From a virus: 26,620 nt of DNA. The position numbers and the translations under genes were made by a program. The stretch is taken from positions 1 through 26,620 of the IMG/VR virus record IMGVR_UViG_3300046011_008182, one strand, 5' to 3'. The notes under the pieces were generated by a model. That model did no database searches and had not been told where the DNA came from. It saw only the letters and a program-made list of their open reading frames with translations. This document shows, piece after piece, positions 7,198 to 26,620 of the stretch; within the stretch, counting starts at the first letter, position 1; the number at the start of each line of letters is the position of its first letter.

Positions 7198-7839
7198 TTA
7201 TTGATAATACTTAGTGTAATCTTCTTTTATGTAAAGATTGAATTTAGGTAGTTTTAGGTTTTTTATAGCTAATTCTACCATATTTTTATTTACTCTAGCT
7301 ACTTGTTGTTCATCTCCAGTTAATTGCCATGTTATATTAAATGGTAAATATAATTGCCACAATATTTGAGGATCTTTTGCTATTAATTTATCGTATTGAT
7401 CTTTATTTATTTCAATATATAATATTTCGTTTGTTTTTTTACAAAAAAATCTTCTAAACTCTCCGTTTTGATAATCTTGTTGTGTTGGTTGTTGTGGATT
7501 ATAATAAGGAGTGTAAGTTATTTGTTGTTGTGGTTTTAGATTATTATAAATAGAATTACTTTTAGGGTCTTGGTTTTCATTATTGTAAACTAATCCATCA
7601 TAGTTGTCAGCTAATTGAATAAATGATTTTCCTGTTAATTCTGTTTCAGCTGTAGCTTCCCAAAAATCTTGGGTAATTGGAAAAAGTTCTAAATTAGGAA
7701 GATCATTAGGGGTTTTACCTGTAAAGTATTTTCCTTTACTTGTTTTAAAATAATATCCAGTATAACTTTCTCCATTAATGAAAAATTCATTTCCATTTGT
7801 ATATAAATTAGGGGTGATTTGTGATAATGGATAATACAT
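7198..7839 (-). CDS. Putative baseplate-associated protein, function unknown
   Basis: A 213-residue soluble protein. The N-terminal part reads like a small beta domain: LYTNGNEFFINGESYTGYYF, then SKGKYFTGKTPNDLP, a 'Y.G.Y....G.Y.TG..P' pattern I associate with structural proteins of environmental tailed phages. A Gln/Pro/Tyr-rich linker (about residues 93-120) leads to a second domain, GEFRRFFCKKTNEILYIEIN through LYLPFNITWQLTGDEQQVARVNKNMVELA. It is packed two bases after the hub gene stop and is followed by the 772-aa gene, so it belongs to the tail/baseplate operon. There is no signal peptide or membrane segment. A baseplate or tail accessory role comes from position only. Confidence 0.75.
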   Translation of the reverse strand: MYYPLSQITPNLYTNGNEFFINGESYTGYYFKTSKGKYFTGKTPNDLPNLELFPITQDFWEATAETELTGKSFIQLADNYDGLVYNNENQDPKSNSIYNNLKPQQQITYTPYYNPQQPTQQDYQNGEFRRFFCKKTNEILYIEINKDQYDKLIAKDPQILWQLYLPFNITWQLTGDEQQVARVNKNMVELAIKNLKLPKFNLYIKEDYTKYYQ

Positions 7840-7841
7840 AA

Positions 7842-10800
7842 TTACATTCCTTTAAATAAATCTTGGTATCTTACATCAGTAGCTAAGGCTTTTATTTTAG
7901 CATCATTAATACTTTTAGGTAAAGCTGTTGAACTTACATTAAATCCATTTCTGATTTCTATTTTGAATCCTTTATCCTCATATAGTGTGCTTACTAATTT
8001 ATTTAAAGCCTCAGTAGATTCATTTTTTGCAGGGTTTAAATAATTTGTACCTATTCCATCAGGATTACCTTGAGCATTTTTATTTTTAAAATTAAATTGA
8101 GGGCCAGGACCTATACATCCTGCTAACCACCCTGGTGCTTTAGGAGCAGTATGTATTAATACCCAAGTTCTATCTGTTGGATTTGATCCTGGAATTCGTT
8201 TCCATTGTCCTGATTCACTTCCTACTAACCAAAAATGTTTACCATATTTAGATGTTTGTCTACTGTTTACTAAATAATTACCTGTTGGAATACAACTACT
8301 TCCGTTTTGATTATTTTTCCAAGGTAATTCTACTGTAGCCAATCTATATATAATATTAACATGATTCACATCATATATTTCTAAAATTCCTAAAGTTTGT
8401 GTGCCATCATCTAAAATACGTGTTAATGTAGCTCTATTTTTAGCTTGTTCCGGTGGTAAATTAGATTGGTAATAAAATGTTGGAGATGTTGTACTATATT
8501 CTTGTGGTTCTCCTCTATTTGCACTTCTTTCTGCTTCACTAGATCCAGTAATAGCAAATGGATTTTTAGGAATAGCCATTGATTCAATACTAGTAGTCCA
8601 TTCATTGTTATCAATAACATGATTTATACCTTTAATTAAAAATTCTAAAGTACCAGGATAATTTGTTGGTAAGAAATTAGTATCAATAGTAAATTTTTGG
8701 TATACTTTCATTCCTGATAGTCCATCCATTTTTAAAGATAAATCAAATGGTAAAAATCCACTATTTGCTGATGATATAGTTGGATCGAATTTTACATTTT
8801 TTTCTATTTCAGCGTATTGATAATATTCTAATAGTTGCGTTTGAAGATTTTTATAATCTTGTATTGAATCTAAAACATAGTTTGGGAGTTTTTTATTAAC
8901 ATTAGTTCCTAAATCTATAATAAAATTATCAAAAGAAGTAAGAGCTGCTTTATATTGAACCTCTAATGGTTTTGGCGTTTCTATTGTTTCTTCTGTTTCA
9001 TCAGCATTTGTTATTTTTTCTTTAAATCTATCTGTTAAACCATTATTCATTCTAGATAAAGAAGTAGCATCTGCTCCTTTTATATATCCCTGTTTTGTTG
9101 ATCCAATAGTAATCATTGTAGCTAATTCTGGTGATACAGTTGTAGTAAAACTTAAATCTTTAATAAAACCAGCATGTGGTACTTTATTACCATAAATACT
9201 TTCTAATGTTCCAGCATAATACCCATATGTATCAAATATTACTTCTTCTGTTGATATATCCTTATAAACATCTGTAATGTATTTTGATTTTAATATAGCA
9301 TCTTTATCTGGAAGTGCTACATCATCTACAATTCTAATAGTATTTGTTTCTGTGTCAATTATTGGTTCTAATTTGTTGAAATTTCCTGTTGATTCATTGT
9401 ATCCTTTACATAAAGCATCCAATAAACCATACAAAGATATTTTACCTTTATTATCTTTAATTTCATCTATTTTATTAAGAATCCATTCCATATTAAAATA
9501 AATATTCATTATATTTCCATATTTACCTTTAATATTAGTATCACCATTAAAATCTATTATAAAATCATCAGCACCCGGTATAAAATCATATTTTTGACCT
9601 TTAGATGTAACATAAATTGATTTTTTTACATAACATACTTTAGGATCTGCACTAATTGTATATGGTTGGGTGTAAATAATATTACCTATTCTATTAAAAT
9701 CTACGTCTATTAACTTAATATTTGGATCATTATTTATATTAGGAATTACTTTTGCTTTTAAAAAGGATAAAAAAGCACCAAATCTTATGTAATATCCTTG
9801 CGATCCACCTTCAAATGTTTGTGAAAAATATTCTATATGTGAATATAATTCATTTTTATCTGGATCAGTATAACTTACTTTGTATGGTGTTAAACCATAT
9901 ACATCTGGGGAGTTTTCATTTAAAAGATCATATATTAATTTAAATTCTTTTCCAATTTCATGGGCTTGTTCAAATGATTCTATTGGACTTGTTGGGTTAA
10001 AAAATTCACCAATAGCTGATATTCCTCGTTCTAGTAAATTAGAGTTTCTCTTTTCTTGAATTTCTGTAGTTTGAGTTTGAGTTCCACCTAGTAAAGTATT
10101 TGCTTTTAAAGATTCAATAACATCTCCTAAACTTATTAATTTTATTGTGATATCATATTTTCCATCATTAGTAACAGTCCAAGTAAAATTAACTACTTTA
10201 GCAAATATAGCATCATAATTTCCAAACGATGCTAATCTATATCTATCTATTAATGGTAATATTGAATTATATGTTAATGGAATTTGTTTACTACTATCAT
10301 TAGGATCAGGACAATTTCCTTTAAACCAATAACCCATTAAAGAATATGGATTATCTTTTATATAATTACCTTTATCGTCAAAATAAGAGCTTTGCCCCCA
10401 CTCTAATAAAACACTATATCCTAAACGCATATATAATAAATCAATTATATCAAATTGTTGTCTATTATTTGCTTGGATTTTTACTGTTGCTGTTTTTATT
10501 GAGCCTCTTGTTTCCGTTCTAATTTCAGCTGAAAGTATACCAGGCATTGGTCTTAAACCGAATTCTGTACCTCCTAAACCATAAGCTCCTGTATTAAAAA
10601 TACTGCCATCAAATGCTATTCCTTGATTATTTTTAAATGAGTTATTATCAGGATTATAAGATACAATACCATTAAATAATACATTATTTTTTGCAAGTTG
10701 GGTTCCAGCAGGAATATTTAAATTTCTAATAGGTGTTGTTTGGTCAATACTTACACTAGACATTAATTTACACCATCCACTTCTAGTATTTAAATATGTT

Positions 10801-10898
10801 AATTCTGTATTGTTTCTATTTATAGAACCATATACTTTTTGACGCTGTGCAATTTGATTTGCTATTTTTTCATTAATACCTTCACCTACTATATTCAT
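7842..10898 (-). CDS. Baseplate hub protein with DUF5675-type C-terminal domain
   Basis: A 1018-residue protein. The N-terminal part contains GTEFGLRPMPGILSAEIRT and QFDIIDLLYMRLGYSVLLEWG, stretches typical of the central hub proteins of T4-related environmental phages. The middle region is large and beta-rich. Residues about 821-985 form a separate domain, with ATLTRI near its start, IPTGNYLVNSR, WVLIHTAPKAPGWLAGCIGPG (His916, Cys928) and FKIEIRNGF near its end, matching the DUF5675 family as I remember it. The His and Cys resemble the H...GC arrangement of L,D-transpeptidase-like folds, so a peptidoglycan-directed activity at the tail tip is plausible but unproven. In T4 the equivalent role is filled by the gp5 lysozyme domain. 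The gene lies between the LysM-like protein and the 213-aa gene with gaps of only 2-3 bases. Confidence 0.8.
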   Translation of the reverse strand: MNIVGEGINEKIANQIAQRQKVYGSINRNNTELTYLNTRSGWCKLMSSVSIDQTTPIRNLNIPAGTQLAKNNVLFNGIVSYNPDNNSFKNNQGIAFDGSIFNTGAYGLGGTEFGLRPMPGILSAEIRTETRGSIKTATVKIQANNRQQFDIIDLLYMRLGYSVLLEWGQSSYFDDKGNYIKDNPYSLMGYWFKGNCPDPNDSSKQIPLTYNSILPLIDRYRLASFGNYDAIFAKVVNFTWTVTNDGKYDITIKLISLGDVIESLKANTLLGGTQTQTTEIQEKRNSNLLERGISAIGEFFNPTSPIESFEQAHEIGKEFKLIYDLLNENSPDVYGLTPYKVSYTDPDKNELYSHIEYFSQTFEGGSQGYYIRFGAFLSFLKAKVIPNINNDPNIKLIDVDFNRIGNIIYTQPYTISADPKVCYVKKSIYVTSKGQKYDFIPGADDFIIDFNGDTNIKGKYGNIMNIYFNMEWILNKIDEIKDNKGKISLYGLLDALCKGYNESTGNFNKLEPIIDTETNTIRIVDDVALPDKDAILKSKYITDVYKDISTEEVIFDTYGYYAGTLESIYGNKVPHAGFIKDLSFTTTVSPELATMITIGSTKQGYIKGADATSLSRMNNGLTDRFKEKITNADETEETIETPKPLEVQYKAALTSFDNFIIDLGTNVNKKLPNYVLDSIQDYKNLQTQLLEYYQYAEIEKNVKFDPTISSANSGFLPFDLSLKMDGLSGMKVYQKFTIDTNFLPTNYPGTLEFLIKGINHVIDNNEWTTSIESMAIPKNPFAITGSSEAERSANRGEPQEYSTTSPTFYYQSNLPPEQAKNRATLTRILDDGTQTLGILEIYDVNHVNIIYRLATVELPWKNNQNGSSCIPTGNYLVNSRQTSKYGKHFWLVGSESGQWKRIPGSNPTDRTWVLIHTAPKAPGWLAGCIGPGPQFNFKNKNAQGNPDGIGTNYLNPAKNESTEALNKLVSTLYEDKGFKIEIRNGFNVSSTALPKSINDAKIKALATDVRYQDLFKGM

Positions 10899-14291: not shown

Positions 14292-17033
14292 TTATTGAAC
14301 TTGAAAAGTATTTGTGCTCATAGAATTACTAAATTTAGTTGAGTTATTACCTACACCTTTAGCTACTTTTTCACCATCCATTTCTACTGAAACTTGAACT
14401 GGTCTGTTATTTATTTCTTTAGCTATTGATATTGCTACGGCTGCTGCCATTTTATTATAATCAATAGTTAGTGGTGGTGGATTTATTGGTTTGTTTATTT
14501 TATTATTATTAATTGGTTGTGATAATGGAGAAGATGATTTATTGCCTCCTAAATCAGTACCAGCTATTATTGTATCTTTATCGTTTAACGCTATTGCACC
14601 TTCTGGTGCTAATAATGTGCGTTTACCATATCCTTCAGGTGATGATATTAAATCATCTGCTGCTACAGCTTTCATAACAGCATATCCAGCTAATGCTGCT
14701 GCTACTGCTACTGCTGCCCCTACCCCAAAAGTTAAAGCAGCACTTGAAGTTAAAGTAGCTAATGCTATTTGATTTTTTATAATTAATTCTAAAGTAGCTC
14801 TTCCTATATTTTTTAATATAGCAGCTCCTTGAGCTATTATACTACCTAATATTGTTTGAGATAAAAAGGCTGAAATTGCTGATAATTTATTATCTTCTCT
14901 TTTCATAATTAAATTATATGCTAATACTGCTCTTTGAAAACCTAAGTTAGCTAAAATACTACCTCCTAATCCTAGTTGAGTTGTTTGGGATTTGGTTATA
15001 AATGCTTGTATTGCTGAAATTGATGTTAAGACAAGTTGTGTACTTTTTAATATAGCATAACCAGCAGCAAGGGGGCCTAATATTTTTCCAAAAGCACCTG
15101 CAATATTTCCTACTATACCACCAATAACTGATAATATTGGGGCTAATATATCTACTATAGGAGATATCACTTTTAATATAGGGCCTGCTAAACTAACAAA
15201 TATTTCTTTTAATTTTTCAATCGAAGCATTAAAACGTTCTTGAATAGATTGAGAAGCTAACTGTTGACCATATTTTTCATCACCTAATTTTTGAATAGCT
15301 TTTTCATAACCATATTGTTTAACTAAATCATCAAATTTTTCTTTAGCGGCTGCAGCATCTTTTAATCCAATTTTAGCTAAAGCTTCTCTTTCAATTAATG
15401 AAGCTGCTAAATCTTCTCTAGTCATACCAACAGATTTAGCTAATGCTTCTTGTGCTATAACATTTGTATTAGTAAAATCAGCAGCTGTACCTATTTGTCC
15501 TGCTATTTCTCTTGCTACTCCAGCTATATCATTATTTAAAGCATACATACGAGCACGCTCTAGATTTAAATCTTTACCTGTTATTAACTCAGCTTCTAAT
15601 TCTGAGGATATAGATGATTCAAAATTAAGTAAAGATTGAGATATTGCTTCTACTTTTTCTAAATTTGCTCCTAATGCTTTTGCTTGAGCCACGGCTTGAG
15701 CTAATTTACCTGAATGCATTCCTAAAGATAAAGTTGTTGCTTTAGATGCTTTAGCTACATCTTCAACAATTTCTTTTTCATTTAAAGCTAATTTATTAGT
15801 TATATTAAATGCTTTAGCTTGACCTAATATTTTAGCTGTATTATCTGATAAATCTGTTCCTGTTGCTACTGATATTTTAGAAAGACGAGCTGCAGTTTCA
15901 TTTGTGTAACCAGCTACTTCTGTTAATTGAGTAAAATCTTTTAATAATTCTCCACTAAGCATTGTTGCTGTTCCAAATTCTTTATTAACAGCTATTAATG
16001 ATTTTTGTAATGCTAAAGTTGTAATATTAATATCTCCACTTGAATTAGCTATATTATTAAGTTCATTTCTTAAATTATTTGCTTCATTATATGAAGTACC
16101 AAATGCTTTTGCTAATTCTCCTGTTGCCTTATCTGATTTTATAAGAGCATCAATTATTTGTTGTATAACAAATAAAGTTATGTTTGCTGGATTTGTAAGT
16201 GATGATTTAAGTTGATTACCTAATGATTTTAATCCTGCTCCTAATCCTTGAACGCCACTTTTTGTTGCTTTAGTAGTATTTTCAGCTTCTTCACGAATTT
16301 CTTTAAAATCAATACCTAAATTTTTTAATACTGGGATTCTTTCTAATCCTTTTAACGCACCTCCAAAAATACCTAATTGTTTTTGTATTTCTTTTCTTTT
16401 TTCTTCTTCTTTTTTTAATTCAACATTTATTTTTTCTAATTCTTCTCGTTGTTTTTTAGTAATATAAAACTGTTTAGAAGAAAGACTCATATTTTTAAAA
16501 TTACTTTCTATTAGTTTTTCATTGGTATATATTTTATTTCTAAGTTCTTTTATTTCATCTTTACGAAGATCTCTTTCATCTTTAGATAAAGATAATATAT
16601 TACTTAATTCTTTATATTGTTTAACAACAGCTTTATTAAAATTTTCAATATTGTTTATTCTGTTAGCATCTTTTTCTGCTTTTTGTTTACCAAGAGCATT
16701 TAATTGACTTTCTAAACTGGTTTCAAATAATTTAGCTTTATTAATTGTGATAATATTTCTAGAAATTTGTTTTTGAATATCTTCTATTTCTTCAAATTCT
16801 AATCTTTGATCACGTATAGCTCTATTTATTTTTTTATTAATATCTAATATGCCAGATTCAAAAACACTTCTTCTAGATTCAATACCTAAAATATCTTTTA
16901 AGTCTTCTACTAGTGTTGAAGATAAATCATAACTTTCAGATTGAAGCTTTAATCTATCTCTAAGAATTTCGTTTTCTTTAACTAAAAGATCATTTAATTC
17001 TTTTTGTTTTTTTATTTCTTCAGGAGTAGGCAT
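14292..17033 (-). CDS. Tail tape measure protein
   Basis: A 913-residue protein with the expected tape-measure architecture. A long Glu/Lys-rich coiled coil occupies roughly residues 1-225 (for example VELKKEEEKRKEIQKQLG). An Ala/Leu-rich helical middle follows, then hydrophobic potentially membrane-inserting stretches at about 617-662 (GPILKVISPIVDILAPILSV) and 758-791 (TFGVGAAVAVAAALAGYAV). The C-terminus is a short beta region, RPVQVSVEMDGEKVAKGVG, of a type common at the ends of tape measure proteins. It sets tail length and is probably ejected during DNA delivery. It follows the chaperone pair, as in most tailed phages. T4 gp29 is shorter (590 residues), so a longer tail is possible. No lysozyme or peptidase motif was seen. 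Confidence 0.88.
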   Translation of the reverse strand: MPTPEEIKKQKELNDLLVKENEILRDRLKLQSESYDLSSTLVEDLKDILGIESRRSVFESGILDINKKINRAIRDQRLEFEEIEDIQKQISRNIITINKAKLFETSLESQLNALGKQKAEKDANRINNIENFNKAVVKQYKELSNILSLSKDERDLRKDEIKELRNKIYTNEKLIESNFKNMSLSSKQFYITKKQREELEKINVELKKEEEKRKEIQKQLGIFGGALKGLERIPVLKNLGIDFKEIREEAENTTKATKSGVQGLGAGLKSLGNQLKSSLTNPANITLFVIQQIIDALIKSDKATGELAKAFGTSYNEANNLRNELNNIANSSGDINITTLALQKSLIAVNKEFGTATMLSGELLKDFTQLTEVAGYTNETAARLSKISVATGTDLSDNTAKILGQAKAFNITNKLALNEKEIVEDVAKASKATTLSLGMHSGKLAQAVAQAKALGANLEKVEAISQSLLNFESSISSELEAELITGKDLNLERARMYALNNDIAGVAREIAGQIGTAADFTNTNVIAQEALAKSVGMTREDLAASLIEREALAKIGLKDAAAAKEKFDDLVKQYGYEKAIQKLGDEKYGQQLASQSIQERFNASIEKLKEIFVSLAGPILKVISPIVDILAPILSVIGGIVGNIAGAFGKILGPLAAGYAILKSTQLVLTSISAIQAFITKSQTTQLGLGGSILANLGFQRAVLAYNLIMKREDNKLSAISAFLSQTILGSIIAQGAAILKNIGRATLELIIKNQIALATLTSSAALTFGVGAAVAVAAALAGYAVMKAVAADDLISSPEGYGKRTLLAPEGAIALNDKDTIIAGTDLGGNKSSSPLSQPINNNKINKPINPPPLTIDYNKMAAAVAISIAKEINNRPVQVSVEMDGEKVAKGVGNNSTKFSNSMSTNTFQVQ

Positions 17034-17066: not shown

Positions 17067-17085
17067 GCCTCTATTTTTTAGAGGC
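17067..17085 (-). terminator. Hairpin at the end of the gp51-like gene; weak terminator or processing site
   Basis: GCCTCTA and TAGAGGC form a 7-bp stem with a 5-nt A loop on the transcribed strand. It overlaps the TAG stop of the 91-aa gene. Only three T residues follow immediately, then AATATTTATAA, so termination would be partial at best. It could limit tape measure expression relative to the genes before it. Confidence 0.5.
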
Positions 17086-17346
17086 CTTCGTAATGTATGT
17101 TGGTGGTGTAATAGGTTTAGCAGTTTTATTAAATTCGGATTTATTAACTTTACCTGATGAATCCATTAATACTGTTTTACTTCCGTTTTGTGCTTTTTCA
17201 TATTCTGATGCTTCATCTTCATAATGTTTTTGAATTTGTAAAAATGTATATTTACGTAACCATATTGGCATATTGTAAATTGTATTCCAATCAAAACCAC
17301 CATTACCATGAAATACTATTTCGTGAATTTGTTTAAACAAACTCAT
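17071..17346 (-). CDS. gp51-like tail assembly chaperone / hub assembly protein
   Basis: A 91-residue protein whose N-terminal half (MSLFKQIHEIVFHGNGGFDW, then NTIYNMPIWLRKYTFLQIQKHYE) is a pattern I associate with T4-type proteins annotated as gp51 or baseplate hub assembly factors: a 'GGF.....YNMPIWLR.FTF..I...YE' block. The C-terminal half is charged and low in complexity. It stands immediately before the tape measure gene, the place of the second chaperone (the 'T' part) in other tailed phages. Its frame is open upstream past its ATG for 15 more codons and overlaps the end of the gp26-like gene, so it may be made mainly as a frameshift fusion rather than from its own start. No ribosome binding site is evident at the ATG. 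Confidence 0.65.
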   Translation of the reverse strand: MSLFKQIHEIVFHGNGGFDWNTIYNMPIWLRKYTFLQIQKHYEDEASEYEKAQNGSKTVLMDSSGKVNKSEFNKTAKPITPPTYITKASKK

Positions 17347-17362
17347 ACGAAATAAAGGAGCA

Positions 17363-18100
17363 TTATCCAGCGTCAGGCCAAAAAAAGTTAATCCCTATTG
17401 GGATAGCGACCTCCACTCCGCTATCAGTTATGAAAGTTAAATTAACATCAGGTTGTGTTTTTTTAATGTATTCTCTTAAAGCACGTGAATCTTTAGCTAA
17501 TAAAAAATTATCAACAAATTCTCTTATAGATTTATTATCTCTATCACCTTCAACTGAAGTTATCATATATTTTAAACGAGTAGATAATTCTGGCGAGAAA
17601 TCTTTGTTAATTTTCTTTAATCCTTCAATTTCCTTATCAATATTTGTTTCATCATTTCCTGTTAATATTTTATAGGTAATTTTATTATTAGAATGAGGTA
17701 AAGTATAAGAAAATTCATTTATTCCTTTAGTGAATTGAGATTCATCAAAAGATTTATTTTCTACTTTTGATAAATCAACTGTTATTTCTCCTCCAGCATA
17801 ATTAAATGAATAATCTTTACCGTATCCTAAAACACGAGCTGCAACGAATAATGCATTTTTATCTCCAACAATTAAATCTTTAACATTTACTCCTTTTGTT
17901 ACAATTAAGGATTCAAGTAATTTATCAAGTACTGTCCCTTTTTGAATATAGGATTGATTTGTTAATATATCTTCTTCTCTAGCTGTCATGTATTTCATTT
18001 CAACTGTTCCAGATGATAAAGGAGATGTTTCAGGGTAAATTAAACCTTTTGAAGGTAAATCTACAATTTCTGTTGGGAAACTAAATTTGTTTTCTTCCAT
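17363..18100 (-). CDS. gp26-like tail assembly chaperone / baseplate hub subunit
   Basis: A 245-residue protein with the N-terminal signature FPTEIVDLPSKGLIYPETSP, then GTVEMKYMTAREEDILTNQS, which is the recognisable start of the T4 gp26-type family (Pfam T4_baseplate, as I recall). T4 gp26 is 208 residues. The C-terminus ends VAIPIGINFFWPDAG. It follows the tube gene across a strong terminator and precedes the gp51-like gene, in the place where tailed phages encode the tape measure chaperones. A TTTTTTT run over F239-F240-W241 could let ribosomes shift into the downstream frame, giving a fusion of about 342 residues. Since the upstream terminator isolates it, it probably needs its own promoter in 18101-18143. 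Confidence 0.68.
   Translation of the reverse strand: MEENKFSFPTEIVDLPSKGLIYPETSPLSSGTVEMKYMTAREEDILTNQSYIQKGTVLDKLLESLIVTKGVNVKDLIVGDKNALFVAARVLGYGKDYSFNYAGGEITVDLSKVENKSFDESQFTKGINEFSYTLPHSNNKITYKILTGNDETNIDKEIEGLKKINKDFSPELSTRLKYMITSVEGDRDNKSIREFVDNFLLAKDSRALREYIKKTQPDVNLTFITDSGVEVAIPIGINFFWPDAG
17380..17386 (-). other. Candidate programmed frameshift site (T7 run)
   Basis: The transcribed strand reads AAC TTT TTT TGG CCT in the gp26-like frame. After a +1 (or -2) slip on the T7 run, the next codon is GGC and the frame runs through 11 codons into the ATG of the gp51-like gene without a stop. The downstream frame is closed by TAG just before this site, so the usable overlap is only about a dozen codons and includes the run. 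Confidence 0.5.
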
Positions 18101-18197: not shown

Positions 18198-18686
18198 TTA
18201 GAAGTTTAATACACAATAATCTGGTTGTACTGTAATTTGGATATTTTGTGCTGTTGATTCATTATCCCAGCTATAATCACCAAAGTTAGCATTTGTAATT
18301 AATGCACCTTTAATAATCCATTCTGATACAATATCACCTACTGGACCTAAAACATCTATTGTTAAATCTTTCTTATAGAAGTCAGAATAACCATCTCTAC
18401 CTGTTACAGATTCGTGATGTAAACGTACCCATTCCATTACTGCCTGAGCACCCGAAGGTGTAATTGGATCAAATAATGTTAATTGGATTTCACCCCATTT
18501 AGATTTACCTTTAACGAAACGTTGTACGTTTATATGGTTAAGAGGAATACTATCTTGGGTTAGCGTCACAGCGTTTACTCCCTTAATTATATACGAAGGT
18601 ATACCGTCAACATACATAATAAATCTATTTTGTTGTTTTGGTTCAAATGCTGTGAAAAATATTTCGTTTGGATCTAATACTGCCAT
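18198..18686 (-). CDS. 19: Tail tube protein (gp19-like)
   Basis: A 162-residue protein, essentially the same length as T4 gp19 (163). It begins MAVLDPNEIFFTAFEPKQQN, followed by RFIMYVDGIPSYIIKGVNAV, and has the tube-family features SKWGEIQLTLFDPI, VMEWVRLHHESVTGRDGYSD, DLTIDVLGPVGDIVSEWIIKGA and the C-terminal strand NIQITVQPDYCVLNF. Hexameric rings of this protein form the inner tube through which DNA passes, and the sheath encoded just upstream contracts around it. It is followed by a strong terminator, as expected for a gene that must be expressed in large amounts. Confidence 0.92.
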   Translation of the reverse strand: MAVLDPNEIFFTAFEPKQQNRFIMYVDGIPSYIIKGVNAVTLTQDSIPLNHINVQRFVKGKSKWGEIQLTLFDPITPSGAQAVMEWVRLHHESVTGRDGYSDFYKKDLTIDVLGPVGDIVSEWIIKGALITNANFGDYSWDNESTAQNIQITVQPDYCVLNF

Positions 18687-18733: not shown

Positions 18734-20458
18734 TTATTCGAAACTTACTCCTGTAGGTAAAATGTTGAAGTTTAAGTAAATAAATTCAGCAGTTTTAGTT
18801 GGTTGTAAATAGATTTGACCTACTAATTGATTTCTATCAATTACATCTGGCGTATTGTTTGAATCATCCATTACTACTTTAAATGCAAATAATCCTTGTC
18901 TTTGTTGAACTGATGTTAAGTATGGATTTACTTGTGCTAAGAAAGCATTACGAGTAGCTATACTATTTTGTTCAAATACTAAGTTATTAGCAACTTGAGA
19001 AATATATGATTTTAATGAAATTAATAATCTACGAACATTTACTCTATCTAATGAAGATGCTTTTGTTTGTAATGTTTTTTGTCCATATACTACAACTCCA
19101 GTACCTGGGAATGTTGCAATTGGATTTACTTTATTATTATATAAAGTATCTCTTTGAGTTTGTGATAATTTTTGAGCTGCTCTAATAACAGTAGATAATC
19201 CACCTCTATTAATACCTGCAGGTGCAAACCAAGGCTCACTTACGCTATCATTAAATGCATACACACCTGCTACCATTGTTGAAGCTGGTACCCAAACACG
19301 TTGTCCTGAATCTGGGTCAATTGTTTGAAGCCAAGGCCAATATGAAGCAGCATATGAAGTATTTCTTGAAGTTGATTGTGCTGTTACTGATGCTATTGTA
19401 TTTACATTATAAGGAACTAAATCAAGTACAAAAATATTATCACCTCTGTTTTGAGTGTTATTAATTACACTTGTAACTTGAGAAGTTTGTAATGAATTGA
19501 ATAAACCAGGAGCTATTAATACGTTAAATCTATAATCATCTTGATTAGATAACAAACTAATCATGTTGTTGTAACTTGCACTTGGAAGACCTTGTGAATT
19601 GTTACCACTTGTTATAGTTTCATAATAAGCAGCGCCAGCACCAAATAAATTACCAGTAGCATTACCGAATGAACCACTTTTATTTACTGGAATAGAACCT
19701 GTAAATTGTGATTTTGCAACACCGTTGTTATCAAAATAGAATGGAGTTGGAGTTAATACTGATTTTACTCTTACGTATCTTGAGAAATTAGGAGTTGAAC
19801 CTGAAACTTCTATTTGATTTGTAGTAGAATTGTAGTTTGATTTAGAATCACCTATTACTTTAGTTACAAAATTTGGAGCGGTAGGGTCCATTGATAAGTT
19901 AGTCCAAGTTTCTAATATACTAGGATCGTTTACAGTATCATCACCTTGTCTAATTAATAATGAGAAAGTACCTGAAGCAGTATCGTTGTTTGTAATTTGC
20001 CATCTGATATTATCTGCTGATCCACTAGCTAAAGCACCACTAGCATCTTCACTACCTGTACTATTCATAATAGTACCTTCAGATAAAGTAGCTAATACTA
20101 AAGAAGCTGATGTGTTAGCATTTGTGATACCATTTAAACCAGTTGCGCCTACTTCAGTAGTTGCTTCACTGAAAGTACCACTTACAACACGAGAAACTAA
20201 CAATGTTTGACCACCGTTGTTAAAATAGTTGTAAGCAGCTATTGATGTAAAATAGCTATAAACTTGACTACCACTAATAAAAGTAGTACCAAATTTGTTT
20301 TGATAATCACTGTAAGAAGTAACAATTGTTGGAACTTCTACAGGACCTTTAACTGTTGGACCAATAATAGCCGCACCTACGGTTACTGGTTGTTGGGTTA
20401 TGAATGATTGATCGTTTTCAATCGCTAAAACACCAGGAGATATTAATGTTTCTACCAT
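18734..20458 (-). CDS. 18: Contractile tail sheath protein (gp18-like)
   Basis: A 574-residue sheath protein. The N-terminus MVETLISPGVLAIENDQSFI with VGAAIIGPTVKGPVEVPTIV and YQNKFG is the standard sheath start ('SPGV...E....... G..A.IG...GP...P..V.....F...FG'). The C-terminal conserved region includes SSLDRVNVRRLLISLKSYIS, FEQNSIATRNAFLAQVNPYL and AEFIYLNFNILPTGVSFE, which in contractile tails form the core domain and the arms that mesh neighbouring subunits. Length is near that of T4 gp18 (659), with a smaller variable middle domain. It lies directly upstream of the tube gene, the normal order. The first Met is supported by alignment of the SPG block near the N-terminus. Confidence 0.95.
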   Translation of the reverse strand: MVETLISPGVLAIENDQSFITQQPVTVGAAIIGPTVKGPVEVPTIVTSYSDYQNKFGTTFISGSQVYSYFTSIAAYNYFNNGGQTLLVSRVVSGTFSEATTEVGATGLNGITNANTSASLVLATLSEGTIMNSTGSEDASGALASGSADNIRWQITNNDTASGTFSLLIRQGDDTVNDPSILETWTNLSMDPTAPNFVTKVIGDSKSNYNSTTNQIEVSGSTPNFSRYVRVKSVLTPTPFYFDNNGVAKSQFTGSIPVNKSGSFGNATGNLFGAGAAYYETITSGNNSQGLPSASYNNMISLLSNQDDYRFNVLIAPGLFNSLQTSQVTSVINNTQNRGDNIFVLDLVPYNVNTIASVTAQSTSRNTSYAASYWPWLQTIDPDSGQRVWVPASTMVAGVYAFNDSVSEPWFAPAGINRGGLSTVIRAAQKLSQTQRDTLYNNKVNPIATFPGTGVVVYGQKTLQTKASSLDRVNVRRLLISLKSYISQVANNLVFEQNSIATRNAFLAQVNPYLTSVQQRQGLFAFKVVMDDSNNTPDVIDRNQLVGQIYLQPTKTAEFIYLNFNILPTGVSFE

Positions 20459-24062: not shown

Positions 24063-25682
24063 TTAAACATATTGTAAATAAATATCTCCATCAGAACCGC
24101 CTGAAGGTGCTGCTGTTCCGCTTGTGATTGCTTTTTGTTTGTCATTAAATGTAGTCCAATCTGATGGACTTAATGCTCCCCTATTTGTAGCATCTGCAGT
24201 AGGTATGTTAAGAGTAATAACAGGTGTTGTAGTTGGATTCACTACTGAACTACTTACATCAGTACCTGTTGTACTAATTGTCAAAGCAGCAACAGAAGTT
24301 ACTGTTCCAGAACCACCACCTAAAACATAAGATGCTGTTGATGCAAATGAAGAACTTAAAGCTTGTTCTGCAAATAAAGCATAAGATGCTGTTGCTATAG
24401 ATCCTGATTGAGATACTGTTACAGGGAATGTTGTTCCGTCTCCTTTTGTAAATGTTATTGTTGTATTTAATGCTGATGCAGTTATTATGCCTTGTAAAGG
24501 TAAAGAAGAAGTTGAAGCGAATGATGAACTTATTGCATTTCCTGATAAGAATGATGCTGTTAATGCATATGAGGCACTAACTACACTTCCTAATAAAAAA
24601 GATGCTGTAGATGCAAATGAAGAACTTAGAGCATTTGTAGCAAAAGATGATGTTCCTAACAAACTTCCAGTAAATGAACCTGTGAATGATCCACTTCTAT
24701 AAGAACTAGTAAAACTATTAAATGTGGTTAAAGTTGTATAAGCAGGAGCAAATGATGCTGTAGATGCAAATGATGAACTTGTCGCTATAGAGGCTGTAGA
24801 AGCAAATGATGAACTAACAGCTCTTGATGAGCTTATTGCAAACGAAGATGATAAGGCTTGAGTTGCATAAGATGCAGTACCTAATAAAGATCCTGTTATT
24901 CCACTAGTTACTCTTAAACTACCAGTTATACTAGCACCGGTAGTTGTAACAGATAATACATCAACTGAAGCTGAAGTAACTGTTAATAATTCTGATGTTG
25001 CGTTTTCTGATACTTGAAATATACTTCCTTGTGAACCTGAAATGTTAAATATATTCGATCCACTTCCTATTATTCCTACAGTATTACTTGAACCTGATAC
25101 TATTAAACTTCCTGTTATTACAGCAGCTCCTACAAACGGAAACGCAGGCCCACCTCCACCACCATTTAAAGCAAATGATGCTGTTAATGAGTAAGAAGAA
25201 CTTAAGGCATACGATGCACTTTGAATACTTCCTAATAATAATGATGCTGTCGCCGCATATGAAGAGCTTGTTGCAATAGAAGCAGTAGATGCATATGAAG
25301 CACTTACTACACTTCCTAATAATAATGAAGCGGTTGCTGCAAATGATGAACTTAAGGCTTGAGTAGCATAACTTGATGTTCCTAAAACACTTCCTGTAAA
25401 CGATCCTGTAAACGAACCTGTTCTAAATGATCCAGTGAAACTATTAAAAGAAGTTAGGGTTGTATATGCTGGAGCAAATGAAGCAGTAGATGCAAATGAT
25501 GAACTTGTCGCTATAGACGATGTTAAAGCAAATGATGAACTTAAAGCATTTGTAGCGTATGATGAAGTACCACTTAACGAACCAGAGATAGTTCCGTTAA
25601 CTACAAGTGAACCTGAAATTCTTATACTTCCTGTTACACTTAAATTATCTATACTCGCTGAGTCTGTAAAAAATATTGGCAT
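24063..25682 (-). CDS. Ser/Ala-repeat tail fibre protein
   Basis: A 539-residue protein dominated by short repeats of the type 'SSSFASTAS', 'SASYALTAS' and 'GSFTGSFTGS', each about 7-9 residues. Such repeats are frequent in fibre proteins of environmental phages and fit a trimeric fibrous shaft. It starts MPIFFTDSASIDNLSVTGSI, has a Gly-rich break at 173-180, a beta-rich middle (181-262) and a C-terminal module with IPTADATNRGALSPSDWTTF and GGSDGDIYLQYV, a type common in Bacteroidota and their phages. Residues 36-131 are repeated as 266-371, an internal duplication visible in the protein. No enzymatic or intramolecular chaperone domain was seen. A host-contact role is likely; the receptor-binding part cannot be pinpointed. 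Confidence 0.82.
   Translation of the reverse strand: MPIFFTDSASIDNLSVTGSIRISGSLVVNGTISGSLSGTSSYATNALSSSFALTSSIATSSSFASTASFAPAYTTLTSFNSFTGSFRTGSFTGSFTGSVLGTSSYATQALSSSFAATASLLLGSVVSASYASTASIATSSSYAATASLLLGSIQSASYALSSSYSLTASFALNGGGGGPAFPFVGAAVITGSLIVSGSSNTVGIIGSGSNIFNISGSQGSIFQVSENATSELLTVTSASVDVLSVTTTGASITGSLRVTSGITGSLLGTASYATQALSSSFAISSSRAVSSSFASTASIATSSSFASTASFAPAYTTLTTFNSFTSSYRSGSFTGSFTGSLLGTSSFATNALSSSFASTASFLLGSVVSASYALTASFLSGNAISSSFASTSSLPLQGIITASALNTTITFTKGDGTTFPVTVSQSGSIATASYALFAEQALSSSFASTASYVLGGGSGTVTSVAALTISTTGTDVSSSVVNPTTTPVITLNIPTADATNRGALSPSDWTTFNDKQKAITSGTAAPSGGSDGDIYLQYV
24570..24887 (-). repeat. Internal duplication in the fibre gene, copy 2
   Basis: Encodes residues 266-371, with the block FAPAYTTLTTFNSFT, SYRSGSFTGSFTGSLLGTSS and LLGSVVSASYALTA, matching the order in residues 36-131. 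Confidence 0.65.
25290..25577 (-). repeat. Internal duplication in the fibre gene, copy 1
   Basis: Encodes residues 36-131, with FAPAYTTLTSFNSFT, SFRTGSFTGSFTGSVLGTSS and LLGSVVSASYA, the partner of 24570-24887. Confidence 0.65.
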
Positions 25683-25701: not shown

Positions 25702-26620
25702 TTAATTAATTCTTCTAGTTTGACCACCCGTAGTTCCATCAGGATTAATAAGAACCATACGCTCAGCAACAGAACCAGAGTATGTTGTGAAATTTCCTCC
25801 AATTAAAAACTTGCCATTAGATTGTTGGATTATTGGAATAACAATGTCATTAAAACCTGTTCCTATATTAAAAGTTGCATCCTTAGTTCCATCAGAATTT
25901 AGTCTAACTATTCTGTTATTAGCTGAACCAGAGTATGTTGTGAAATTTCCTCCAACTAATAATTTTCCGTCTGGTTGTTGGATTATTGGAATAATAGAAG
26001 CATCAAAACCTGTTCCCATATTAAAAGTTGTATCCTTAGTTCCATCAGTATTTATTCGAACTATTCTGTTATTAGCAGAACCAGAATATGTTGTGAAATC
26101 TCCTCCAACTAATAACTTGCCATCAGATTGTTGAATTACTGTTCGAACAAAACCATTAAAACCTGTTCCTATATTAAAAGTTGTATCCTTAGTTCCATCA
26201 GAATTTATTCTAACAATGTAGTTATTAGCAAAACCAGAGTATGTTATGAAATCTCCTCCAACTACTAATTTTCCGTCTGATTGTTGGATTATTGATAAAA
26301 CTAAAACATCAAAACCTGTTCCCATATTAAAAGTTGCATCCTTAGTTCCATCAGTATTTAGTCTAACTATTCTGTTATTAGTAAAACCAGAGTATGTTGT
26401 GAAATTTCCTACAACTACTAACTTGTCAACAGATTGTTGGATTATTGTTCGAACAATACCATTAAAACCTGTTCCCATATTAAAAGTTGCATCCTTAGTT
26501 CCATCAGTATTTATTCGAACTATTCTGTTATTAGCAGAACCAGAATATGTTGTGAAATCTCCTCCAACTAATAACTTGCCATCAGATTGTTGAATTATTG
26601 ATAAAACAAAGTTATTAAAA
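25702..26620 (-). CDS. Delta-60 repeat (DUF5122 beta-propeller) protein, 5' end missing
   Basis: The C-terminal 306 codons of a repeat protein. The frame is open to the window edge, so the visible ATG at 26478 is an internal Met of a repeat and not the start. The repeat unit is exactly 51 residues, for example IIQQSDGKLLVGGDFTTYSG followed by NNRIVRINTDGTKDTTFN and GTGF. This is the delta-60/DUF5122 pattern ('QPDGK...GG.F....G.....I.RL..DG..D.TFN'), thought to build beta-propellers in secreted and surface proteins. The C-terminus is short, ending GGQTRRIN. It lies upstream of the fibre gene, so a fibre or adhesin role is likely. Neighbouring units are almost identical in DNA, implying recent expansion. 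Confidence 0.83.
   Translation of the reverse strand, partial: FNNFVLSIIQQSDGKLLVGGDFTTYSGSANNRIVRINTDGTKDATFNMGTGFNGIVRTIIQQSVDKLVVVGNFTTYSGFTNNRIVRLNTDGTKDATFNMGTGFDVLVLSIIQQSDGKLVVGGDFITYSGFANNYIVRINSDGTKDTTFNIGTGFNGFVRTVIQQSDGKLLVGGDFTTYSGSANNRIVRINTDGTKDTTFNMGTGFDASIIPIIQQPDGKLLVGGNFTTYSGSANNRIVRLNSDGTKDATFNIGTGFNDIVIPIIQQSNGKFLIGGNFTTYSGSVAERMVLINPDGTTGGQTRRIN
25855..26620 (-). repeat. 153-bp tandem repeats inside the delta-60 gene
   Basis: The anchor acctgttcc on the plus strand recurs at 25855, 26008, 26161, 26314 and 26467, spaced exactly 153 bp, and a further unit is cut by the window edge. Each unit encodes 51 residues. Units differ mainly by scattered substitutions, with variation concentrated in the few codons after GTGF. 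Confidence 0.92.

Follow-up and report, generated by a model that had tools for sequence, protein, structure and literature searches.

Organization of the locus

The window, by which we mean the whole 26,620-nucleotide stretch analysed here (IMG/VR virus record IMGVR_UViG_3300046011_008182, positions 1 to 26,620), encodes a tail gene cluster in the order sheath, tube, G, T and tape measure slot (Table 1), and Flavobacterium phage immuto is annotated in the same order (tail tube, chaperone, tape measure). The product of the gp26-like open reading frame (ORF), the G protein, matched phrog_150 ('baseplate hub') in profile searches with an E-value of 8.2e-8, and the ORF in the tape measure slot returned no informative family match of its own in such searches. 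Two overlapping ORFs lie between the tail tube and tape measure genes, as in loci of the G/GT type. On the minus strand the gp26-like ORF ends with the codons ATT AAC TTT TTT TGG CCT GAC GCT GGA TAA, and the +1 frame reads GGC CTG ACG CTG GAT AAT GCT CCT TTA TTT CGT before its ATG, which is followed by AGT. Since the +1 frame is closed upstream by a TAG, any shift into it must fall between that TAG and position 17363, and a +1 slip at the T run gives a computed product of 240 + 102 = 342 residues.

Table 1. Features of the tail chaperone locus and its neighbours in the window
Feature	Position	Strand	Basis or remark
Tail tape measure gene	14292..17033	-	Assigned by position: Flavobacterium phage immuto has its annotated tape measure gene in this slot
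T domain in the +1 frame, 102 codons from GGC 17379, stop 17073-17071	17071..17379	-	C-terminus of the putative long form (TAC-NC / GT)
ATG within the +1 frame	17344..17346	-	Possible independent start in the window phage; absent in most relatives
gp26-like ORF, short tail assembly chaperone (G / TAC-N; phrog_150), 245 aa	17363..18100	-	C-terminus NFFWPDAG
Stop TAA of the gp26-like ORF	17363..17365	-	16 bases before the ATG at 17346-17344
Near-invariant 14-mer TTTTTTTGGCCTGA	17373..17386	-	Exact in 108/112 distinct junctions (best-80 sets)
Candidate slip site AAC TTT TTT TGG, +1 at UUU_U(GG), with TTTTTTT run	17380..17386	-	Sequence
TAG closing the +1 frame on the upstream side	17395..17397	-	Sequence
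Shine-Dalgarno-like GGAGG, 23 nt upstream of the T run	17410..17414	-	Present in 36/72 non-redundant relatives
Tail tube gene	18198..18686	-	phrog_4542 tail tube protein, E 3.3e-24
Tail sheath gene	18734..20458	-	phrog_23 tail sheath, E 5.6e-76; PF04984, E 9.9e-17

The original prediction held that a programmed frameshift at the T run joins the gp26-like frame to a gp51-like gene, and its coordinates for the run, its TAG upstream of the run, its 16-base gap, its 11 codons and its fusion of about 342 residues were all exact on recheck. The term gp51-like gene has to be narrowed: a small ORF does precede the tape measure gene, but this 91-aa ORF is not a whole gp51 homologue and would match no more than the last ~45 residues of T4 gp51, by an indirect link.

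Several other proteins of the window were recorded, all on the minus strand. A large protein (7842-10898) lies downstream of baseplate-type genes and contains DUF5675 at residues 824-941 (E 7.8e-11). Two proteins that are repetitive by eye (24063-25682 and 25702-26478) are perhaps of a tail-fibre or surface type, one having recurring SSFASTASIATSS-like stretches and the other GDFTTYSG-like repeat units.

Predicted structure of the two parts

The AlphaFold2 model of the window G protein had a mean pLDDT of 93.6. In a structural second look at the PDB the best row was 3klu (YqbN; Z 5.3, 87 aligned residues, rmsd 4.8), which we take to be a prophage tail chaperone relative, followed by the HK97 tail assembly chaperone 2ob9 (Z 4.9, 84 aligned, rmsd 5.4). 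Both alignments are confined to the N-terminal part of G (residues 1-95 and 1-97, respectively), and these Z-scores are modest, in a range that may mean just a common arrangement. Foldseek of G against the PDB gave no match at E ≤0.001 (2ob9 had E 2.2), and profile sequence searches of solved structures with G and T returned nothing relevant. Near the top of the matches to G in the viral model library were the SP-15 'Baseplate hub subunit' and a 'Baseplate hub assembly protein, bacteriophage T4-like'. The T domain modelled alone with AlphaFold was mainly helical (mean pLDDT 71.8, pTM 0.44).

Conservation of the slip site and of the frame relation

A single run of seven T is unremarkable in this AT-rich window, and the argument therefore has to rest on relatives. 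The coding strands of the 25 window ORFs hold three such runs, two of them in frame 0, where synonymous shuffling expects a mean of 5.5 (1.36 in frame 0); rarity of the run was accordingly rejected as evidence. The second in-frame run is at 7443-7449 (minus strand), inside the ORF at 7198-7839. Judged from the alignments described here, it is conservation, and not the run itself, that raises the junction above chance.

Scans of IMG/VR with the two window proteins gave at least 599 confirmed stretches for one and 566 for the other, and the best 80 loci of each were kept, so that 160 viral loci and the window make up 161 rows, some contigs being present in both sets. Both parts of the chaperone were found in 159 of these rows, every one of which has its downstream frame at +1 to G; a T domain in the -1 frame, the mark of the X_XXY_YYZ class of shift sites, was found in none of them. 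After removal of near-copies, 112 distinct junctions were left in the best-80 sets. The 14-mer deviates in only four, three of which read TTT CTT TAC CCT GA (L036, L039 and L070) and one TTT TTT TTC CCT GA (L071). Codon choice at the junction is correspondingly skewed: F239 is TTT in 112/112 and F240 in 109/112 distinct junctions (gene-body usage 0.83), P242 is CCT in 112/112 (usage 0.44), and D243 is GAC in 102 of 104 Asp codons (usage 0.17). Part of the base conservation past the run follows from dual coding, because FFWPD in frame 0 and FGLT in the +1 frame jointly fix most bases.

The same association emerged when no protein was used as the query. Viral contigs were searched for the 16-mer CTTTTTTTGGCCTGAC, which spans the 14-mer, and at least 120 loci were obtained. 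Among the 120 matches listed, the G profile lies upstream in frame 0 in every one and the T profile downstream in the +1 frame in 119, the exception (L473) being a sequence that ends five codons past the 16-mer; 108 of these 120 junctions are absent from the locus sets built with window-type, Mel-JY01 and LR756508 proteins as queries. It had been proposed that the frameshift be checked by asking whether related phages keep the run and the open overlap. They do, and the conserved run, the open overlap and the +1 relation in relatives together support a programmed frameshift joining the two frames. Homopolymers are prone to sequencing and assembly error, and the overlap might be thought functionless and decaying, but the same frame relation recurs in many separate contigs and in deposited phage genomes, including that of immuto, which refutes both and makes their probability practically negligible.

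Start codons and selection on the T domain

In the current annotation the two frames are independent genes, and the T ORF would be initiated at its own ATG by re-initiation or coupling. The position of the window's ATG shortly past the gp26-like stop fits such a reading, as do the separate annotation of gp51 in cyanophages and two relatives (L303 and L308, below) that appear to have taken the separate-gene route. Most relatives, however, lack the required start. From the slip to T codon 24 there is no ATG in 99 of the 112 distinct junctions of the best-80 sets and none of ATG, GTG or TTG in 85, and the slip site is conserved where the start is absent. When the interval is extended upstream to the opening of the frame, the corresponding counts are 80/112 and 22/112. 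Of 121 distinct +1 ORFs, 84 have no ATG until 25 codons into the homology, and 10 have their first ATG at the position of the window's (17346).

The part of T that precedes these internal ATG codons evolves as coding sequence under purifying selection in the start-less relatives, to judge from its substitution pattern. Differences at codon positions 1, 2 and 3 of T codons 1-24 were 0.200, 0.138 and 0.455 among 79 of the 80 sequences without ATG, the remaining one being too short, and 0.201, 0.137 and 0.434 among the 22 sequences without ATG, GTG or TTG. Since starts are missing and T codons 1-24 are selected, ribosomes that initiate separately at an ordinary start codon could not make the complete conserved domain in most relatives, and we regard two independent genes as a very unlikely explanation of the arrangement. 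The window itself keeps its ATG, so that dual use, with separate initiation besides the frameshift, is possible in the window phage. The linker between the gp26 stop and the T homology was dropped as evidence, codon periodicity being weak there (0.40/0.36/0.50).

Wider distribution, named phages and exceptions

Wider scans with the proteins of Microcystis phage Mel-JY01 and the 484-kb phage LR756508, together with genome contigs, gave 103 loci, of which six were incomplete and 97 were left. The script called +1 in 94 and -1 in three; corrected by eye, 95/97 are +1. One of the -1 calls (L372) arose because its -1 frame is also open, the T domain being in the +1 frame by eye. The 178 distinct junction segments of both sets comprise TTT TTT TGG CC (155), TTC TTT TGG CC (8), CTT TTT TGG CC (3), TTT CTT TGG CC (1), TTT CTT TAC CC (3), TTT TTT TAC CC (3), TTT TTT TTC CC (3) and two with none of these.

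Start codons are commoner in the wider set than among the 112 window-type junctions: in 79 distinct sequences, the interval from frame opening to the YNMP-like motif lacks ATG in 41 and all of ATG, GTG and TTG in 17. The original prediction had named homologs without the run as the case that would count against it, and only two of the 97 wider loci (L303 and L308) are of this kind. Both have lost the slip site and depart from the arrangement; the T ORF here opens with an ATG of its own a few bases past the stop of G, lies in another frame and carries an N-terminal extension. What was a frameshift product appears in these two loci to have been converted naturally into a separate gene, loss of the site accompanying gain of a start.

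In ten named phages the T-like frame, identified by eye, is open across the G stop in all ten. It is in the +1 frame in immuto (TTT CTT TGG CCT), Mel-JY01 (TTT TTT TGG CCT), LR756508 (TTT CTA TTC CCT), SP-15 (TTT TTT CAC), LIS04 (TTT TTT AGT), RM378 (TTT TTT TGG) and GXN1 (TTC TTT CGT), and in the -1 frame, reached via T_TTT_TTC, in LR756511, Atu_ph07 and PA5oct. In the deposited genomes of immuto and Bacillus phage SP-15 (L162 and L165) the annotation of T is limited to short internal pieces, entered as hypothetical proteins. For immuto, four records of three isolates were matched and one junction was examined. The nearest relatives of the window include this phage and contigs titled Flavobacteriales, Winogradskyella and Sphingobacteriales, and their hosts are probably Bacteroidota.

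Direction and level of the shift

The original prediction left the direction as +1 or -2, and the site variants now favour +1 as the most likely, with pairing assessed by hand. At every +1 site listed, the P-site tRNA can re-pair one base forward, on UUU_U, UUU_C or CUU_U. A -2 slippage, as known from phage Mu (PMC5009743), would make the same fusion with one additional Phe (NFFF-GLT rather than NFF-GLT), and at the window's own TTT TTT T the P-site tRNA may indeed re-pair two bases back and land in the same frame. Such re-pairing does not extend to all homologues, as a Mu-type shift would demand: the tRNA meets a non-matching codon at TTC TTT TGG (8 distinct junctions) and at TTT CTT TRN (TTT CTT TGG or TAC, 4 junctions), and likewise in immuto, LR756508 (TTT CTA TTC) and GXN1 (TTC TTT CGT), all of which re-pair in the +1 direction. 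We therefore consider -2 slippage improbable.

The variants bear in a similar way on slippage of RNA polymerase, by which one U would be lost or two gained and standard translation of the edited mRNA would yield the fusion. A seven-T homopolymer in an AT-rich phage invites that explanation; seven T is, at the same time, a short run for polymerase slippage. In TTT CTT TAC, TTT CTT TGG and TTC TTT TGG, as in immuto, LR756508 and GXN1, the run is interrupted and the +1 relation is nevertheless kept, which argues against polymerase slippage and leaves it highly improbable. We conclude that a programmed +1 ribosomal frameshift very probably yields the short (G) and long (GT) tail assembly chaperones from one gene, a conclusion drawn from comparative sequence analysis.

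Sequences flanking the slip site

The GGAGG upstream of the run is spaced from it by 23 nt in 45 of the 54 relatives where this was measured, a distance that exceeds the one usual for Shine-Dalgarno stimulators of frameshifting. Glu is encoded by GAG in 56 of 57 cases at codon 230 and in 52 of 57 at codon 229, against a usage of 13%, and just upstream of the site GTC is used for 54 of 85 Val and GGG for 59 of 85 Gly (usage 4% each). Third-position GC was seen to rise sharply near the GGAGG, which is spelled from rare codons.

No conserved RNA structure was detected by RNAalifold in four windows across 72 non-redundant junctions (energy 0.00), a test with little power, since every column shuffle also gave 0.00. 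Two pairings noticed by eye were tried. A 5' hairpin of the form CCC-AATN-GGG was unsupported, its key pair being formed in 38/53 (permutation p 0.08), and a pairing of upstream GAGGTC with downstream GACNTC was dropped, many rows being unpaired and the ribosome being expected to cover both arms.

Relation to T4 and cyanophage-type phages

T4 gp26 and gp51 match PF12322 (8.8e-64 and 3.9e-52) and phrog_150 (6.7e-71 and 2.6e-84), and gp51 is a paralogue of gp26 with ~45 extra C-terminal residues; their genes lie on opposite strands. PF12322 was not reached by the window or immuto G protein in profile searches, and was reached by the G relatives of SP-15 (1.5e-28), GXN1 (4.3e-25) and RM378 (2.4e-9). 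The T domain gave no phrog_634 match in a profile search.

Two frames share the phrog_150 match in P-SSM2, S-PM2, HTVC008M, Cr30 and phiM12, the tail falling in the -1 frame; junctions were displayed for four of these five. Both parts were found in 82 of 84 cyanophage-type loci and the relation is -1 in all 82; the 42 distinct junctions listed carry T_TTT_TTC, or T_TTT_TTT in Cr30 and phiM12. S-TIM5 (W06, NC_019516) was the sole phage among nine records without a phrog_150 match.

The cyanophage T set, 49 of the 84 loci found by regular expression (23 distinct), aligned by hhalign with the C-terminus of T4 gp51 (Prob 96.6, E 5.8e-10), and window-type T aligned with the cyanophage -1 T domain (Prob 91.1, E 1e-6); controls gave Prob 0.1-0.3 with one side reversed and 0.1 and 0.5 with mid-protein segments. 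A direct profile match of window-type T to T4 gp51 was not significant and was set aside (Prob 0.3 in a comparison that included L178, a truncated T4-type row with a mid-protein 'C-terminus', and 0.5 in a repeat that left it out). Given these T-domain matches, and gp51 being a gp26 paralogue with a tail, T4 gp26 looks like the short form (G) and gp51 like the long form (G+T), two paralogous genes standing in place of a frameshift. The suggestion that the T4 pair be tied to the general G/GT scheme thus agrees with the paralogy and the T-like tail of gp51, but it is not new and is credited to Vladimirov et al. 2022 (Virology 566:9-15). Citing that work, PRFect describes some T4-like phages as carrying one short and one fused long gene (PMC10885494), and the paper on phage Adele describes poly-T -1 sites as known in TAC-N genes of T4-like phages (PMC12846349).

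A tree of the G domain (46 rows, rooted by choice on the T4-type rows) sets a -1 clade of cyanophage-type phages, HTVC008M, Cr30 and phiM12 apart from a mostly +1 clade that includes LR756511 and the pair Atu_ph07/PA5oct, which are -1. Four changes among the states +1, -1, duplicated and separate ORF are needed on this tree, where the branches of LR756508, RM378, Atu_ph07/PA5oct and LR756511 are open or long.

Proposed mechanism

The proposal builds on what was observed, namely two frames in a +1 relation, a conserved site, absent starts and selection on T codons, and from these we infer the slippage itself. Most ribosomes would read AAC TTT TTT TGG CCT GAC GCT GGA TAA and release the 245-aa short chaperone. 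When tRNA-Phe sits on UUU in the P site and the A-site codon UGG (Trp) is, as we presume, decoded slowly, some ribosomes would slip forward by one base, UUU_U allowing perfect re-pairing, and would then read GGC CTG ACG and onward for 102 further codons. The result would be the 342-aa long chaperone; in most relatives its T domain lacks a separate start codon. UUU_Ynn is reported to be a sequence on which bacterial ribosomes shift to +1 with particular ease (PMC5009743). If the two products work as lambda G and GT do, the tape measure protein would be coated by the short form, and tail tube subunits would be brought in by the long form.

A more far-reaching joint reading is offered tentatively and is, as a whole, rather unlikely. 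YUU_UGG_CC could be a distinct and widespread +1 recoding class that depends on neither a stop codon nor a conserved RNA structure, with the GT:G ratio set by slow decoding of a single Trp codon, such that GT supply and tail initiation would track the charged tRNA-Trp of the host. One ancestral Phe-Phe site might then have served -1 shifts (U_UUU_UUY) as well as +1 shifts (UUU_Y) while the T domain passed from one frame to the other, and might have been lost in T4 by gene duplication and in L303 and L308 by gain of an own start codon.

Comparison with known systems

Frameshift-expressed tail chaperones are a known kind of system, and a 2016 review named T4 as an exception to the conserved G-T frameshift (PMC5009743). 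A +1 version in the T4-type chaperone family was not found in the titles and abstract openings of the literature searched, although Vladimirov et al. 2022 may contain it; within that literature, what appears to be new is a +1 form with a near-invariant signature and a wide distribution, and a direction that switches inside a single family. A very large T4-related group would thereby come inside the G-T frameshift rule, with +1 replacing the usual -1, and one family would use three routes to the same protein pair, a -1 shift, a +1 shift and separate genes. The near-invariant signature of 12-14 bases could be used to find and correct T annotations that are missed or shortened, as in immuto and SP-15, and its naturally occurring variants provide +1 sites on which to study why a bacterial ribosome slips forward when no stop codon is present.

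The lambda G/GT system is alike in that a short and a long chaperone are made from one start, with T in another frame and beside the tape measure gene. To our knowledge the lambda and window chaperone sequences are not recognisably related. The -2 frameshift of phage Mu is likewise located in a tail chaperone gene, and it reaches the same +1 frame. The direction of the shift distinguishes both from the window type, being -1 in lambda and -2 in Mu (PMC5009743), whereas the window-type variants fit +1 only. In the Vandenendeviridae tail chaperone of phage Adele the shift is also -1, at GTTTTT (PMC12846349), in contrast to the window.

The +1 shift of RF2 (prfB), at CUU_U or UUU_U, uses a P-site tetranucleotide of the same kind as the window site; among RF2 genes, UUU_U is the version of a small minority (PMC5009743). 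RF2 has UGA at the shift site where the window has the Trp codon UGG, and the window site is without a close Shine-Dalgarno sequence. The purpose also differs, RF2 serving autoregulation and the window type, as we picture it, a constitutive structural use.

Closest is the T4 gp26/gp51 family itself (PF12322, phrog_150/phrog_634), which resembles the window in its phrog_150 type of G and in a similar place in the tail operon. T4 has two genes, the cyanophages, HTVC008M, Cr30 and phiM12 place T in the -1 frame, and the window type places it in the +1 frame.
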